From the IMG/VR virus record IMGVR_UViG_3300022924_000016, positions 62,001-126,000 of that record: a stretch of 64,000 nucleotides of DNA, one strand, 5' to 3'. Position 1 is the stretch's first letter. Every line of letters starts with the position of its first letter. Made by a program: the position numbers and the translations under genes. Origin of the DNA: a virus. The notes below the pieces were generated by a model that was not told the origin of the DNA, did no database searches, and was given only the letters and a program-made list of their open reading frames with translations. Below are positions 40,017-63,187 of this stretch, piece by piece.

Positions 40017-42068
40017 ATGAAAACATTATTAACAGCATTACTTATTACAACATTATCTTTCGGGCAATTTAATCCCCAAACACAGCAAAACACTGTAAAC
40101 CAACCAACAACAGCTTCAAACACTTACTCACACCCTAGTGAGCTTAAATTAGACAACACACTAACCTTAGTAGAAGGAGCAAACCTTACAATAAACGGCA
40201 ATTTGTCTAGGCTAGGTAATAATGGTAGAATCATTATGATGGGTAATAACAAGCTCATAGTAAATGGAAACATAAACAGTAACATTAAGTTTGAAATGAA
40301 TGGAAATTGCTGTATCTATTCTTCTTCCAATATCAATATCCAATCAGGCGATGTTACTTCAAATAACTCTGGAAACTATATCAGCAGTGGGGGAAATATT
40401 AACGGGCTAAGCAACATCCCACAATCAATTTGTGCCAACCAGCAAATCTCTAATCCTTGCGCCAATCCTAATACGATTAACTGCGGAAACCAATGTTCAA
40501 CCGATCCGAATAACACCGCCACTTGGAAGACAGTGAATGGAGTTTTAGGCTGGTATAACGGACAGAACCCTACTACACCGGCAGACAAGACAGCTATCAT
40601 AGCGGAGGACTTTTCAGGTTTTGGATTCAGATGTTGCTCTCTTACAATCAATACAGGAAAATCATTAACCGTTAATACAGGCATTACAGTTTCAGTTACA
40701 AACTCTGTTAAAAACTACGGCAACCTAACAGTCAATAACGGAGGAAATCTTATTCAAGTGAACGACTATTCCATTAATTTAGGCAACGCCATAGTAAAAA
40801 GAACAGCAAAACCTATGACAAGATATGACTACACTTATTGGTCTTCTCCTGTTGCAAATCAGACTCTTTTTAATCTATCACCTCTAACTCTATCAGATAA
40901 GTATTTTAAATGGAACTCAACCAATCAAAGCTGGCAGGTAATTCCATCAGGGAATGAAGTGATGCAGAAAGCCTTGGGGTATATTGTTAGAGCACCTCAG
41001 ACATTTACAATCTCAGGAACGCCTGAAGTATTTTCAGCCACTTTCTCAGGAGTCTTAAATAACGGCTTAGCAAAAGTAACAACATCTACAGGCTTGGCAC
41101 TTTTAGGAAATCTTTATCCGAGTTCTCTAGACGCTAGAAAATTTATCTTGCAAAATTCTGTAGGAACACTATATTTTTGGACGCACAACACAAAGGTAAG
41201 CAGTATTCCTAATTCAGAGGGTCATTACAGCTACAATAGTGCAGACTACGCATGTTTTAATCTAACAGGCGGAACAGCCACAGGAGTAGGAGAAACGCCT
41301 AATGGATATATTGGTTCGGGACAGGGATTCTTTGTGGAGACTTCTACAAGCTCAGAGATAGTTTTTAATAATTCAATGAGAACTTTAGGCAGTACCAATA
41401 CGCAGTTTTTTAGGAATGGTCAAGAAGGCAGATTATGGCTAAATCTTGTAAATTCTGAAAATACTAGATTCTCTCAAATTCTTTTGGGGTATTTAGCAGA
41501 AGCAAATGATGGGTTTGATAACTTATATGACGGAAAAACAAAAAGTTCAGGAAGTTATTTATATTCTATTTTAGATGATAAAGAATTGGCAATCCAAGGA
41601 AAGGCTGTTTTTCAAGATACAGACGAAGTTAAATTAGGATATTCGGCGACAACACAGGGAAGCTTTAATATTTCTTTGGATAGCTTTGAAGGAGTTTTTG
41701 ATAATCAAGATATTTACTTAGAGGACAAGCTTTTAAACTTAGTTCATAACTTAAAAAACTCTGCTTATTCTTTCAGTACTTCGGCGGGAAACTTTAAAGA
41801 GAGATTTGTTTTAAAATATAGACAGGCGAATTTAGGGGTAAAAGAAAGTAAACTAGAATGTAATATCTATGCTTCAAATAACATAATTAGAGTAAATAGC
41901 AAAGAAACAGTAAAATCAATAGAAGTTTATGATTTATCAGGGAAATTACTATATAAACAAACGGTTAACAACACTAATTTCAAAACAGAAAGAATTGAAG
42001 CTGATTGTGTAATAGTGAAATTGAATATTGAAGTAAAGACATTTTCAAAAAAGATTCTGCTAAAGTAA
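40017..42068 (+). CDS. Predicted T9SS-secreted surface protein (683 aa)
   Basis: Residues 1-17 form a signal peptide (MKTLLTALLITTLSFGQ) with the FGQ-type cleavage region usual in flavobacteria. A Ser/Asn/Gly-rich beta-helix-like part follows (about 40-260). A flavobacterial surface-protein segment then has YWSSPV (about 277), GYIVRAP (323), GNLYPSSLDARKFI (361) and GQGFFVET (424). The C-terminal 75 residues fit a type A T9SS sorting domain: VKSIEVYDLSGKLLYKQTV, then IVKLNI and KKILLK at the end. It would cross the inner membrane by Sec and the outer membrane by host T9SS. It is unlike its phage neighbours and probably host-derived. Role unknown; surface masking or exclusion of other phages is inference. 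Confidence 0.8.
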   Translation: MKTLLTALLITTLSFGQFNPQTQQNTVNQPTTASNTYSHPSELKLDNTLTLVEGANLTINGNLSRLGNNGRIIMMGNNKLIVNGNINSNIKFEMNGNCCIYSSSNINIQSGDVTSNNSGNYISSGGNINGLSNIPQSICANQQISNPCANPNTINCGNQCSTDPNNTATWKTVNGVLGWYNGQNPTTPADKTAIIAEDFSGFGFRCCSLTINTGKSLTVNTGITVSVTNSVKNYGNLTVNNGGNLIQVNDYSINLGNAIVKRTAKPMTRYDYTYWSSPVANQTLFNLSPLTLSDKYFKWNSTNQSWQVIPSGNEVMQKALGYIVRAPQTFTISGTPEVFSATFSGVLNNGLAKVTTSTGLALLGNLYPSSLDARKFILQNSVGTLYFWTHNTKVSSIPNSEGHYSYNSADYACFNLTGGTATGVGETPNGYIGSGQGFFVETSTSSEIVFNNSMRTLGSTNTQFFRNGQEGRLWLNLVNSENTRFSQILLGYLAEANDGFDNLYDGKTKSSGSYLYSILDDKELAIQGKAVFQDTDEVKLGYSATTQGSFNISLDSFEGVFDNQDIYLEDKLLNLVHNLKNSAYSFSTSAGNFKERFVLKYRQANLGVKESKLECNIYASNNIIRVNSKETVKSIEVYDLSGKLLYKQTVNNTNFKTERIEADCVIVKLNIEVKTFSKKILLK

Positions 42069-42096
42069 AGTTAAAAAATAATTGGAAAATATTGCG

Positions 42097-42104
42097 TAGA
42101 TTTG
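42097..42104 (+). promoter_or_regulatory. Promoter -7 box TAGATTTG
   Basis: TAGATTTG at 42097-42104 matches TAnnTTTG, 18 bases before the ATG at 42123. It shows that a TTG at 42102 lies inside the promoter and is not a usable start. Confidence 0.6.
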
Positions 42105-43608: not shown

Positions 43609-43959
43609 ATGAATATATTTACTCTAACCGAATATGACTACGATGGAAACAGCTGGTCATTATGGATGCACAAGACTAAAGAAAAAGAACAGTTTGTTGA
43701 AGATTGTCAATGGATTGTAAAAACTCATTTGGAATTGTTATTTAAAGCCGAAGAAGAGGGATTTTACAAGAGAATTGGAAGTGAAGAAGTAATAAATTTA
43801 ATAAGAGAGTATTTACCTAAGCTAGGCTATGAAAACACCAGAGCCTGGGATTATGGTTTTAGATGGCAAATCCGTGCTGAGGAAATCTTAGAAGAAATTG
43901 TAGATGAAAGTACTCTATCTAAGTTAAAGCAACACAATAAAAAAGCATTTAAGAAATGA
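43609..43959 (+). CDS. Hypothetical protein (116 aa)
   Basis: Acidic N-terminus (LTEYDYDGNSWSLWMHKTKE), helical middle and a basic C-terminus (LSKLKQHNKKAFKK). No family recognised. Overlaps the following secreted-protein gene by four bases (ATGA). Confidence 0.55.
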   Translation: MNIFTLTEYDYDGNSWSLWMHKTKEKEQFVEDCQWIVKTHLELLFKAEEEGFYKRIGSEEVINLIREYLPKLGYENTRAWDYGFRWQIRAEEILEEIVDESTLSKLKQHNKKAFKK

Positions 43960-44213
43960 AAAACTTAATATTATTTTTACTCTTTCCAATTTTAATTTTG
44001 GCGCAAGAAAAAGAATTAGAAGTATTCCAAACAAACGAAATAGGGTTACAACAGTTAGTACCAAGCCAAATAGTTATAGAAACAGAGTACAAAACAGAAA
44101 TCTATAAAACTAATGAGTTAGGTATTAGAAACCTAATACCCGAAGTAATTATAGAAAAGAAAAACGAACAAGATTTAGAACCAATTAATTATATAGATGG
44201 AAACAAGAATTAA
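43956..44213 (+). CDS. Small secreted protein with internal duplication (85 aa)
   Basis: A signal peptide is clear (MKNLILFLLFPILILAQ, cleavage near A16-Q17, flavobacterial style). The mature part holds two related copies: VFQTNEIGLQQLVPSQIVIE and IYKTNELGIRNLIPEVIIEK. No lipobox, so it should be periplasmic or released. It lies in a run of phage early genes, so it may act in the host envelope. The protein family is not recognised. Confidence 0.6.
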   Translation: MKNLILFLLFPILILAQEKELEVFQTNEIGLQQLVPSQIVIETEYKTEIYKTNELGIRNLIPEVIIEKKNEQDLEPINYIDGNKN

Positions 44214-47933: not shown

Positions 47934-49937
47934 ATGAATTTAGATAGTGCAATAGTCTGTGACATAGAATCGGTGGGATTTCTTGATAGTTTAAAGAGCT
48001 TTGAAGATTTACACGTATTCTCTTGCTGTTTTAAATCTGAGGGCACTTGGAAAATAAAGAGCACAAAATCTAAAGAAGACATACAAAAAGTTGTAGGTAA
48101 TAAGAATAATACACTGATATTTCATAACGGAATTTCATATGATAAGCCAGCACTTGAAATTATGGGTTTAGATTTTAAGGCTGAAATAATTGACACATTA
48201 CCACTAAGCTACTATTTATATAGTGAAAGAGATAAGCACGGATTAGCCCAATGGGGAGAATTTTTCGGCGTGAAAAAGCCCGAAATAGAGTCGTGGACTG
48301 GTCTATCGTATGACGAATATCGAGTAAGATGTGAAGAGGATTGTAAGATAAATACAAACCTATGGATTATGATTTTAGATTATATGAGAGTGCTGTACGA
48401 CAATGATGACGAGCTCATAATCAAAACAATAAGGTATTTGAATCATAAGGCTAATATGCTTTATATTCAAGACCAAAATCCCATATTAATAGATGTAGAG
48501 CAGTGCAAGAAGAATTTACAATACTTAGAAGGGATAATTTCGGAGAAAGAATTGGAATTAAATGCCATAATGCCTAAAATCCCTATAACTTCTCGAAGAA
48601 GTAAGCCCAAGGTAATGTACAAAAAGACAGGCGACTTATCAGAGGCGGGGATAAAGTGGCAAGAACTGCTTAAAAACTGCAACTTAGAAGAAGATTATGA
48701 AGGACAGATAGATGTGGTTACAGGTTATACGGAGCCTAATTGCCAAAGTTCTGCACAAATGAAAAAATTTCTTATGCAGGAAGGTTGGGTTCCCACAATA
48801 TTTAAAGATGGGGCAAATGGTAAAGTTCCTCAGCTAAGGGACGATGAGAAAAATTTATGCCCTAACATACAGAAATTGATAGAAAAAGTTCCAAAACTTC
48901 AATCACTTGATGGACTATCTGTTGCACAACACCGCTCAGGCTATTTAAAGGCTTTCTTAGCTCATATAAATGATAAAGGGTACGCCAAGGCTTGGGCACA
49001 CTCTTTTACCCGCACATTGCGTTTAAAACACAGTAATCCATTTGTAAATCTCCCAAAACCTAAGTCTAAATATGGAAACCTAGTTAGAGCCGTTATGATT
49101 GCCCCTAAAGGGTATGTTTGTATAGGTGCAGATTTATCAAGTATAGAAGATAAGTGCAAGCAGATTTCCATATTTTCTCTAGACAGAGAGTATGTAGAGT
49201 CTATGAACAGTAAGGGTTGGGATGCACACTTAGCTCTGGGGCTAAAAGCAGGAATGTTTACAGAAGAGGAGGTTCAATTTTATAAATGGTTTAACTCTAA
49301 GGATAAAAAAGAAAATGATTACACTTGCCCTAAGAGTTTTTCTCACCTTTCAGAGGAAGAGCAAGAAGTACTTTTTGACGTATTAAGTAAGAAAAGGGCT
49401 ACAAGTAAGACAGGAAATTACGGATTGACTTATGGATGTGGTGTGGCTAAACTTATGGAATCCACGGGATTAAGTAAAAAGGAGTCTGAAAACCTACATA
49501 AAGGATACCACGCCATAAATTGGGCGGTTAAAAAATTCGCCCAGGATAGAGTGGTTAAAACTGTCAAGGGTAGGAACTGGTTAAGGCTTAATAAAAAGGC
49601 AGGGGGGTTGTCAGAAGTAAATGAAACAACTTGGATATGGAACGAGTACTCTAATATGTGGCTATTTTTAAAAAATGATAAGGATAGGTTTTCTAGCTGT
49701 AATCAGAATTTTGGAGTGAAGGTTTTTGATGTTTGGAGTTGGTATTTGATTCAAGGAGGTATCACTCCCTCATATCAAGCGCACGACGAACAGCTCTGGT
49801 ACTGTAAAGAGGAAGAAGTAGGAAAACATATCAAAATTATAGAGGAAAGTATTACAAAGGTTAATGAAATATTTAATCCTCCTATTCCTTTGGAGTGCGA
49901 TTATAAGATAGGAAAGACATACGCGGACGTCCATTAA
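47934..49937 (+). CDS. DNA polymerase, family A, T7-like with 3'-5' exonuclease
   Basis: Replicative phage DNA polymerase, 667 aa (T7 gp5 is 704). The N-terminal proofreading domain has Exo I DIE (D10, E12), HNGISYD and EEDCKINTNLW. The polymerase domain has motif A GADLSSIED (D400, E405), motif B RATSKTGNYGLTYG (R488, K492, Y496) and motif C AHDE (H617, D618, E619). The C-terminus (GKTYADVH) matches the short His-ended tail of T7 gp5, so the gene is complete. About 40 extra residues lie between motifs A and B compared with T7. A LAGLIDADG endonuclease gene follows, a typical neighbour for polymerases. Confidence 0.95.
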   Translation: MNLDSAIVCDIESVGFLDSLKSFEDLHVFSCCFKSEGTWKIKSTKSKEDIQKVVGNKNNTLIFHNGISYDKPALEIMGLDFKAEIIDTLPLSYYLYSERDKHGLAQWGEFFGVKKPEIESWTGLSYDEYRVRCEEDCKINTNLWIMILDYMRVLYDNDDELIIKTIRYLNHKANMLYIQDQNPILIDVEQCKKNLQYLEGIISEKELELNAIMPKIPITSRRSKPKVMYKKTGDLSEAGIKWQELLKNCNLEEDYEGQIDVVTGYTEPNCQSSAQMKKFLMQEGWVPTIFKDGANGKVPQLRDDEKNLCPNIQKLIEKVPKLQSLDGLSVAQHRSGYLKAFLAHINDKGYAKAWAHSFTRTLRLKHSNPFVNLPKPKSKYGNLVRAVMIAPKGYVCIGADLSSIEDKCKQISIFSLDREYVESMNSKGWDAHLALGLKAGMFTEEEVQFYKWFNSKDKKENDYTCPKSFSHLSEEEQEVLFDVLSKKRATSKTGNYGLTYGCGVAKLMESTGLSKKESENLHKGYHAINWAVKKFAQDRVVKTVKGRNWLRLNKKAGGLSEVNETTWIWNEYSNMWLFLKNDKDRFSSCNQNFGVKVFDVWSWYLIQGGITPSYQAHDEQLWYCKEEEVGKHIKIIEESITKVNEIFNPPIPLECDYKIGKTYADVH

Positions 49938-60325: not shown

Positions 60326-61915
60326 ATGGGAAAAAAGAGATATTCACAAGAGCAGATAGACTTCGTAGTAAATCTAGTAGGTAATGGAGATACTGTTACA
60401 GGAGCTACTAGAAAAATGTGCGAGCATTTCGAGATAAAATACGATGAAACTGCGGGCAGAAGATTCCGAGATATTTTACAAAAGAAAGGAGTCACAAGCA
60501 ATACAGTAACTGTTGAAGACACTGATGTATTTAAAGAAGCTCAGCAGAAGCAGCATGACTCCACAAAGAAACGGTTTTTAATTTCGTGGGCGCAGTCAGA
60601 AACACCTGTACATAAGAGATTTCTTAAAAATATGGAAGCTTACGCAAATCATATTGATGGAGATATACTTATCTGTGCTGGGCGCTATCGTAACCCATCA
60701 TCCCTGTCTTCAAGTAAGCAATTAAAGAAAAAAGAAAAGGATGTTAAAAATACATGGGATGCTTCGATAATACCTTATCTAGATGCTAACAGGCACAATT
60801 TACACCCTTTGTTGTGTGTCCTTTCTAATTTGAAAACGCAACCTACCAGCTCGATGCCTCTGAATGGTTTGAATGGAATTACAGGATTAGAGTCTTGTAT
60901 AATTGGTCATCCTAGAGTACACATGAAGTCTTTGCCTGTTGTAGAGGGGTATCCACATAAGATTTTGATGACAACGGGAGCAGTAACAGTTGAAAATTAT
61001 ACAGATACAGCAGTGGGTGTTAAGGGAGCTTTCCACCATCAGATAGCTTGTGTTATCGTAGAAATTGATGGTGAGAATTTTCACCTCAGACATATTATAG
61101 CAGATAAAAAAGGCGATTTTCAAGATTTAATGTATTGTGTCACTAATTCTGAAGTCACAGTGTGTAGTAAACCTGTGGAAGCTCTGATATTTGGAGATCT
61201 CCACATAGGGGAAACAAATCCTATTGCGGAAGAGGTTTCTTTTAAAATGGCGGAATTGTTGAAACCTAAAAAAATTATAATTCACGATGCTGTAAATTCT
61301 CACTCTGTAAGTCACCACGAACAGAAAAATCCATTCCAACTATTAGAGAGAGAAGAAAATGGCAGTTGGTCGTTACAGAGGGAATTAGACGAAGCTGTTT
61401 CTTGGTTTAATAAGTATCCTCAGTACCAATTTGTAACTGTCCGTTCGAACCACTGTGAGCATATAGATGGTTGGGTAAAAAATACAGACTGGAGAAAATC
61501 TACAAATAAGAAATTATACTTAAAATTTGCTAACATTTTGGCAGAAGGATTAGCTCCAAAAGGTATAGTGCCGTATGTATTTTCTACTGAATTGAACAAC
61601 GTTTATCCGTTAGGTTTAGATGAGGCATATAATGTAAAAGGTATTGAATTAAGTATCCATTCTCACGTTGGTGTCCATGGTTCGAGATCGAGCCCAACAC
61701 AACTTAAAAATTTACCAGTGCGTACTATAGTCGGCCACAGTCATGTACCAAGTAGAATAGATGGAACAATATCGGTGGGGACTCTGACACATCTAAGAAT
61801 CTCTTATAACTCTGGAGCATCAGGGTGGTTAAACTCTAATGCGGTCATTTACCCTAACGGAAGAGTAGCACAACTTAATATCATTAATGGTAGATTTACA
61901 ACGTTATTAGATTAA
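60326..61915 (+). CDS. T5 A1-like DNA transfer / calcineurin-type phosphoesterase (529 aa)
   Basis: The C-terminal half is a metallophosphoesterase: LIFGDLHIGETNP (D291, H293), VTVRSNHCEHIDGW (about 369-383), SIHSHVGVHGS and IVGHSHVPSRIDGT (about 468-481). The end NSGASGWLNSNAVIY is conserved in proteins related to phage T5 A1, which is required for second-step DNA transfer and host DNA breakdown. The N-terminal 60 residues (SQEQIDFVVNLVGNGDTVTG, then AGRRFRDILQKKG) look like a helix-turn-helix. Likely an early nuclease or phosphoesterase acting on host DNA. Confidence 0.8.
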   Translation: MGKKRYSQEQIDFVVNLVGNGDTVTGATRKMCEHFEIKYDETAGRRFRDILQKKGVTSNTVTVEDTDVFKEAQQKQHDSTKKRFLISWAQSETPVHKRFLKNMEAYANHIDGDILICAGRYRNPSSLSSSKQLKKKEKDVKNTWDASIIPYLDANRHNLHPLLCVLSNLKTQPTSSMPLNGLNGITGLESCIIGHPRVHMKSLPVVEGYPHKILMTTGAVTVENYTDTAVGVKGAFHHQIACVIVEIDGENFHLRHIIADKKGDFQDLMYCVTNSEVTVCSKPVEALIFGDLHIGETNPIAEEVSFKMAELLKPKKIIIHDAVNSHSVSHHEQKNPFQLLEREENGSWSLQRELDEAVSWFNKYPQYQFVTVRSNHCEHIDGWVKNTDWRKSTNKKLYLKFANILAEGLAPKGIVPYVFSTELNNVYPLGLDEAYNVKGIELSIHSHVGVHGSRSSPTQLKNLPVRTIVGHSHVPSRIDGTISVGTLTHLRISYNSGASGWLNSNAVIYPNGRVAQLNIINGRFTTLLD

Positions 61916-62080
61916 TATAAAATTTACACATTTTGTAAACCAATTATAGTTTCGTATTTTTTTTTTCAGATTCTTACTGGCATATTTATCTGATATAAAC
62001 GAATTATTTATTGAGAGACTCTTTTCATTAACTGTGCCAGCGGTTTTTGATTGGGGTTTTCTTGTTTTTAAGCCGAAGTA

Positions 62081-63187
62081 ATGGAGCATTCAGAGTTTTT
62101 AAAAAGATTAGAAAAAAATGAACACTTTGTAAGTGGGTATTTTAAAGTTATAAGTAAATATCAATGTGATAAATGTAAAGTACTGGTTGAAACACCTTAT
62201 GGGGTTTGTGCATGTGATCCTAGAAATTTATATGAGCATAATACAAGACCCACAATTATGACAGCGGTTGATAAAAATAGTTACTATTCAAATTATATTA
62301 AAGAACACAATGAAAACTATAAAAATAATAACTTTGAAATTGTTTCAGACTTCATAGGTTTTAATAAGGAGATATTTGTTAAAACAGAATATGGAGTTCA
62401 TAAAACAACTGCCAATAGCTTAAAACGAGGAGAGATGCCTGGAATAAACAGTGCTGTTAATAAGGTAGATTATGTTCATAACCAATTAATTGAAACAAAC
62501 GAATATTACAGAAAAGGACTATTTAAAGTAATAAGTTATAAAAGAGGAAAAGTCACTTTAGAAGACAGTTTTGGGTTGTGTACTATGTTATTAAATGATT
62601 TGGTTAACAACTGTCAACCCACTATTTTAAGTGCTGTGGACAAGACAGATTATATTAAAAATAAATTTAAGGATTTAATACACTATGGTAATTATGACTA
62701 TTCTAAATTTGTATATGATTGTGCTAGATGTAAATCTATAATAATCTGTAGAGAACATGGTGAATTTTATCAAACCCCCTCAAAACATTTAGGTAACCAA
62801 GGGTGTCCTAAATGTGGTAGTATAAGAACTGGAAAATATATGCTTGAAAACCCAAATGGTTGGAATTATACGAATTGGCAAAATGCAGGAGATAGAAGTG
62901 ATAATTTTGACTCATTTAAAGTATACATAATCAGGTGTTGGAATGAGCAGGAGGAGTTTTATAAGATAGGAAAGACTTTTGTAACTGTAGAAAGTAGATT
63001 TAGGTTAAAACTATTGATGCCGTATAATTATGAAATTATTGAACAGTTTATTTTTAATAGCTCAAAAGAAGCATCCAGGTATGAGTTACACTTACAAAAA
63101 TTGAATAAAAAGTCTACCTATAAACCTTTTATTTTATTTAATGGGTCAAATGAATGCTTTAATAAATATTCTTTAACAGTCCTATAG
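62081..63187 (+). CDS. GIY-YIG homing endonuclease with triplicated DNA-binding region (368 aa)
   Basis: The catalytic GIY-YIG domain is C-terminal: VYIIRCWN (281-288), YKIGKTF (about 295-301), R307, and E336 in SRYELHL. Before it lies a zinc-finger-like section (CARCK, CREHGEFYQTPS, GCPKCG at about 210-250). The N-terminal 200 residues contain three copies of a 60-residue unit, each ending P-x-I-x-x-AVxKxxY. The upstream 165 bases (61916-62080) are A/T-rich and appear non-coding; TTTACA-N5-TGTAAA is the only clear small hairpin. It is a mobile nuclease, probably free-standing. Confidence 0.85.
   Translation: MEHSEFLKRLEKNEHFVSGYFKVISKYQCDKCKVLVETPYGVCACDPRNLYEHNTRPTIMTAVDKNSYYSNYIKEHNENYKNNNFEIVSDFIGFNKEIFVKTEYGVHKTTANSLKRGEMPGINSAVNKVDYVHNQLIETNEYYRKGLFKVISYKRGKVTLEDSFGLCTMLLNDLVNNCQPTILSAVDKTDYIKNKFKDLIHYGNYDYSKFVYDCARCKSIIICREHGEFYQTPSKHLGNQGCPKCGSIRTGKYMLENPNGWNYTNWQNAGDRSDNFDSFKVYIIRCWNEQEEFYKIGKTFVTVESRFRLKLLMPYNYEIIEQFIFNSSKEASRYELHLQKLNKKSTYKPFILFNGSNECFNKYSLTVL

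Follow-up and report, generated by a model that had tools for sequence, protein, structure and literature searches.

A phage gene encoding a 683-residue protein was found at positions 40017-42068 of the window, that is, of the whole stretch of 64,000 nucleotides analysed here, which corresponds to positions 62001-126000 of a 141,323-base IMG/VR virus record. The gliding adhesins RemA and RemZ are homologous to the protein in their C-terminal halves and, as judged from sequence and structural models, its export by the type IX secretion system (T9SS) of the host is likely. Such export had been predicted in an earlier sequence-only reading; it is considered likely because of the homology to RemA and RemZ, the predicted fold of the C-terminal sorting domain (CTD), the conserved phage context and the purifying selection acting on the gene. 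With regard to its role, a captured T9SS cargo that remodels the surface of the infected cell, most likely by masking or displacing receptors, is somewhat favoured. The gene and its parts are as follows:

40017..42068, + strand: coding sequence of the predicted RemA/RemZ-like T9SS cargo of the phage, 683 aa (open reading frame call; homology; 93.6% identity in sister contig L002; dN/dS 0.094)
40017..40064, + strand: predicted Sec signal peptide, residues 1-16 (MKTLLTALLITTLSFG), followed by Q17 (heuristic scan; pattern shared by phage and bacterial relatives)
40065..40499, + strand: N-terminal passenger, residues ~17-161, beta-rich and without family (no Pfam domain; predicted structure; the RemA match begins at residue 162)
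40500..42065, + strand: RemA/RemZ-like C-terminal module, residues 162-683 (phmmer matches to RemA 898-1434 and RemZ 579-1103; at the extreme C-terminus in relatives)
41844..42065, + strand: predicted type A T9SS C-terminal sorting domain, residues ~610-683 (Foldseek ranks 1-2; TIGR04183 match below cut-off)
42051..42053, + strand: codon of Lys679, counterpart of an almost invariant CTD lysine (RemZ Lys1110; conserved alignment columns)

The signal peptide was called by a simple heuristic scan of all open reading frames in the record, combined with comparison with relatives. The N-terminus, MKTLLTALLITTLSFG followed by QFNP, contains a Lys, a hydrophobic core and an end of the (S/G)-Q type, like that of bacterial RemA-like relatives, and by scan and comparison with phage and bacterial relatives it fits the flavobacterial signal peptide proposed earlier. 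A flavobacterial signal-peptide-like start was also seen in P0002 (L012:1789-2916; record 61789-62916; ending at window position 916), a tail-fibre-like protein of the same phage, 375 aa long (phrog_9729), so that a signal-peptide-like N-terminus alone is no proof of a non-virion protein. The motifs YWSSPV, GN(L/P)YPSSLDA and GQGFFV, previously taken as typical of flavobacterial surface proteins, were recovered by alignment as conserved columns of a large flavobacterial family. The beta-helix-like body fared less well: residues 36-129 were predicted to be all-beta with moderate confidence, and the beta-helix itself found partial support. No lectin, enzyme or other Pfam domain scored above its cut-off in the protein, and no lectin/adhesin passenger like that of the RemA/RemZ family was recognised in it. 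A Pfam G8 match at residues 212-255 lay far below cut-off, and weak PHROG matches to tail proteins and proteins of unknown function were disregarded. When the N-terminal region was used as the query, the sister phage was the sole match.

A phmmer search of PDB sequences returned two matches only, RemZ (query residues 177-673, E 2.9e-93) and RemA (query residues 162-681, E 4.3e-93) of Flavobacterium johnsoniae. In the adhesins it is the C-terminal half, some 500-520 aa, that is homologous, and in nearly every relative this region reaches the last residues of the protein. Of 150 genomes sampled from the genus to which Flavobacterium cellulosilyticum belongs, 136 carry the module, frequently in many copies, and among the matches listed the window protein shares at most 47% identity with bacterial copies. 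Both RemA and RemZ belong to the cargo proteins that cryo-EM has revealed in T9SS translocons with bound substrate (PMC10994853).

The sorting domain itself was examined with family profiles and by structure prediction. TIGR04183 and NF033708 both matched the extreme C-terminus of the window protein below their cut-offs (18-20.5 bits against 23, and 21.8 bits against 40, respectively), and PF18962 gave no match in this protein; the copy of the sister phage reached 22.0 bits with TIGR04183 by hmmscan and 26.1 by genome search. The type B profile TIGR04131 gave no match by hmmscan or genome search, and likewise none in the control genomes. The sorting-domain pattern noted earlier was thus found in the right place, with the predicted fold and with homology to RemA and RemZ, and the proposed profile check yielded a TIGR04183 match at the expected end; the cut-offs of TIGR04183, NF033708 and PF18962 were not reached in the window copy. 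Since that copy lies under the profile cut-offs, the assignment rests on RemA/RemZ homology and fold.

A model of residues 511-683 (mean pLDDT 85.7) was compared by Foldseek with 350,542 PDB chains. The CTD of RemA (8gl6) ranked first (TM 0.84, rmsd 1.2 A over 74 columns) and that of RemZ (8gl8) second (TM 0.83), followed by the RgpB CTD. With the weaker model of the whole protein (pLDDT 63.5), the RemA and RemZ CTDs again came first, and the NucA CTD gave a TM of 0.75. An Ig-like beta-sandwich CTD fold is accordingly predicted at the extreme C-terminus. Lys679 is placed four residues from the end, as is Lys1110 in RemZ (1114 residues), and the lysine column was invariant in one alignment (K479) and nearly invariant in another (K679); the role of the CTD lysine has been described (PMC10994853). 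The phmmer homology to RemA and RemZ together with the predicted CTD fold is the deciding evidence for the sorting domain.

The neighbours of the gene encode virion proteins, a family A DNA polymerase, an endolysin and an HNH endonuclease; on one side stand the last virion-type gene and this endonuclease, on the other the replication genes. Among named phages, the Cellulophaga phages phi4:1 and phi17:2 (Lightbulbvirus) have the closest relatives of two large virion proteins (25-38% identity), and by these sequences the phage belongs near them. No tyrosine integrase was found in the 141-kb record, which is compatible with a lytic life style without proving it. In a sister contig of 146,648 bases (L002), the gene occupies the same position and is 93.6% identical; the T9SS-labelled gene is thus found at the same place in two related phage contigs, flanked on both sides by phage genes. 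Counterparts of the four genes directly upstream and the six directly downstream are missing from L002. The dN/dS ratio between the two copies was 0.094; the body had the smallest value, and those of the signal peptide and the CTD were larger. The identity to L002 amid swapped neighbours, together with this ratio, indicates that the gene is kept by selection where its neighbours come and go.

Several further features of this region were recorded. An 85-aa protein with signal peptide MKNLILFLLFPILILAQ is encoded at window positions 43956-44213 (+); it is 93% identical in the sister phage despite the exchange of the genes that separate it from the T9SS gene, and has no relative among isolate phages. 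The family A polymerase of the window (47934-49937, 667 aa) has an 803-aa open reading frame in the equivalent position of the sister contig (L002:15065-17476), and no blastp match between the two was obtained at 1e-4, as if the polymerase gene had been exchanged. Directly after the T9SS gene, in both phages, stands the string TATTGCGTAGATTTG (window 42090-42104, +), which has a TAnnTTTG-like end and might act as promoter of the genes that follow; the window contains no second exact copy, and near-matches were barely above chance.

A profile scan of IMG/VR located the module in eight contigs, L002 included, and a second scan added none. L018-L024 all encode a signal peptide plus the module, L020 and L024 being near-identical. 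The copies in L018, L019, L020, L022, L023 and L024 exceed the cut-offs of TIGR04183 and PF18962, and that in L021 falls below the TIGR04183 cut-off. In L018 the gene lies near those for tail sheath, tube and baseplate, in L019 among virion genes, and in L022 next to virion-type genes; in L021, a 177-kb record, a UvsX-like gene flanks it, and L023 is a 294-kb record with a terminase gene. The Pfam search for terminases matched in the 294-kb record only and so provided no phage test for the other contigs. L020 and L024 are short contigs; because the two L024 neighbours tested matched no phage family, the phage identity of both rests on IMG/VR. Cargo with DUF4874 and DUF4832 ahead of the module is encoded by L018:6492-9551 and L023:6507-9527. 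In L019-L022 there is practically nothing between signal peptide and module (555-573 aa). In two listings of bacterial carriers, the median length of the open frames was 1308 and 1147 aa, with 616 aa or less in 3 of 112 listed, so that passenger-free copies are unusual, though not unheard of. Among isolate phages, no relative was found in a collection of 50,697 records; tblastn matches in Mycobacterium phages (E=9) and matches of Synechococcus phages to L020 (E>=0.7) were attributed to chance. Small open reading frames with signal-peptide-like N-termini were also observed near the T9SS genes (L018:6244-6495, L022:9540-9761 and L023:809-1198), adjacent to them in L018 and L022, and the 294-kb contig carries a further one (L023:16942-17412) with a signal peptide and an outer-membrane-barrel-like start, cut by the end of the locus.

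In a maximum-likelihood tree, the window/L002 pair was placed inside a Flavobacterium clade, beside one bacterial copy (92/86), and the remaining phage copies formed one clade elsewhere (100/100). A single phage origin was rejected (AU p 0.0009 with all phage copies held together), which, with the placements in the tree, implies at least two acquisitions from Flavobacteriaceae. The phages of this second clade differ widely in their backbones, which suggests that the module has also moved between phages.

According to published work, the CTD of RemA suffices to send a reporter through the T9SS, and type A CTDs use PorV, the outcome being static anchoring at the surface or release (PMC10994853, PMC12618676). 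Possible receptors of flavobacterial phages include the gliding proteins SprB and RemA, and resistance to phage is reported for gliding mutants (PMC13288928, PMC7345892). In the mechanism proposed, the cargo gene would have been captured by the phage from a Flavobacterium-type host. The protein would be made during infection and cross the inner membrane by Sec via its signal peptide; its type A CTD would then dock in the SprA-PorV translocon of the host, like the domains of RemA and RemZ, and PorV would deliver it to the cell surface, where RemA-type cargo gets anchored or released. There the truncated adhesin look-alike (the module without a lectin-type passenger) may remodel the infected-cell surface, the benefit being that gliding adhesins or other receptors would be masked or displaced, with superinfection exclusion, or fewer progeny lost to infected cells and debris, as the result. 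The gene, its homology, the predicted CTD fold, the phage context and the selection are computational results; we infer secretion in infected cells, the surface location of the protein and, above all, its purpose. Receptor masking and superinfection exclusion are proposed because gliding adhesins are suspected phage receptors, and receptor masking or surface remodelling is ranked first among the possible functions, which in the earlier reading were coating of cells, blocking of receptors and altered gliding. A wider hypothesis, that unrelated flavobacterial phages have repeatedly captured the module and use a passenger-stripped, T9SS-exported decoy replacing, masking or blocking receptor adhesins in a Bacteroidota-specific superinfection exclusion, is put forward as a tentative possibility.

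An exported cargo might instead alter the adhesion, gliding or aggregation of the infected cells, as a public good, for the spread of progeny or in a biofilm, and would then have no part in receptor masking. RemA is itself a gliding adhesin and lectin, and the DUF4874 and DUF4832 cargo of L018 and L023 as well as the glycoside hydrolases of Cryophage (PMC7468147) would suit modification of surfaces or polysaccharides; the window protein, however, is without a recognisable enzyme or lectin domain and four other phage copies are practically passenger-free, and this reading is considered unlikely. A further reading is a decoy that would jam the SprA-PorV translocon, or compete for it, and so reduce the export of host adhesins serving as receptors: L019-L022 consist of little beyond signal peptide and module, almost all listed bacterial carriers are longer, and CTDs bind SprA-PorV tightly (PMC10994853). 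Yet PorV is apparently in excess or recycled and copes with overproduced CTD fusions (PMC12618676), and the window copy does have an N-terminal passenger, so that jamming of the translocon appears improbable.

It is slightly less probable still that the gene encodes a virion protein (in a fibre or for receptor binding) in which an adhesin-like domain has been reused and the signal peptide is fortuitous. Virion-type genes border the L018, L019 and L022 copies and the tail-fibre-like P0002 starts similarly, but signal peptide and sorting domain occur at the exact ends of every phage copy, the gene lies outside any tail gene block in the window, L021 and L023, and sequenced phi4:1-type phages have no homologue. 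A passively hitch-hiking host gene or an assembly artefact can hardly be credited: the family is indeed very common in Flavobacterium (136/150 genomes), but the same position in two independent phage assemblies contradicts this explanation, and purifying selection and the identity of no more than 47% to bacterial copies among the matches listed also speak against it. Surface remodelling with receptor masking by an exported cargo remains the preferred reading.

To our knowledge, phages seldom use a protein-secretion system of the host to bring a non-virion protein out of the cell. Provided that the export is real, the module ties phage infection to gliding adhesins, which are suspected flavobacterial phage receptors, and offers a molecular route, open to testing, by which superinfection exclusion could arise in Bacteroidota. 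Three points appear to be new: the predicted cargo is a gliding-adhesin module, sometimes passenger-free, several phage lineages carry it, and purifying selection retains it; none of the three was found in the literature searched, which covered few subscription journals. With one earlier report now extended to several phage lineages, exploitation of the T9SS by phages may be common in the phylum.

Phage-encoded T9SS cargo as such is already known, as follows from the Cryophage report, the crAss-BACON open reading frames and annotated viral structure entries. The sequence-only reading had called such cargo in a phage unusual, which must be qualified: it has been published before (PMC7468147), and the module occurs on further phage contigs. 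Bellas et al. (2020) described three T9SS cargo proteins in Cryophage (MT820023) as a unique occurrence and named superinfection exclusion as possible (PMC7468147). Cryophage resembles the window phage in encoding proteins with type A sorting domains and in the proposed use of the host system; by its description it differs in its 76-kb size and its endoglucanase, GH39 and PA14 cargo, whereas here a gliding-adhesin module is found in a phi4:1-like phage and in others. Open reading frames with T9SS sorting domains adjacent to crAss-BACON, also on phage contigs, were mentioned in passing in a BACON-domain context (de Jonge et al. 2019, PMC6949934). Structural similarity to the window model was obtained for BFVD/UniProt A0A8D9C8P8 (uncultured marine phage, E 3e-22) and A0A6J5L910 (Secretion system C-terminal sorting domain, uncultured Caudovirales phage, E 5e-4), both of which are predicted database entries for which no study was found in the literature. 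The Cellulophaga phages phi4:1 and phi17:2, closest by their two large virion proteins, have no homologue of the cargo gene. RemA and RemZ (Fjoh_0803), type A cargo and gliding adhesins of F. johnsoniae, share with the phage protein the C-terminal homology over ~500 aa, the predicted CTD fold and the CTD lysine; they differ in their length (1436 and 1114 aa, respectively) and large passengers, a lectin in the case of RemA, and in their bacterial origin, whereas the virus-encoded protein has 683 aa, with an N-terminal part that is short and unclassified.
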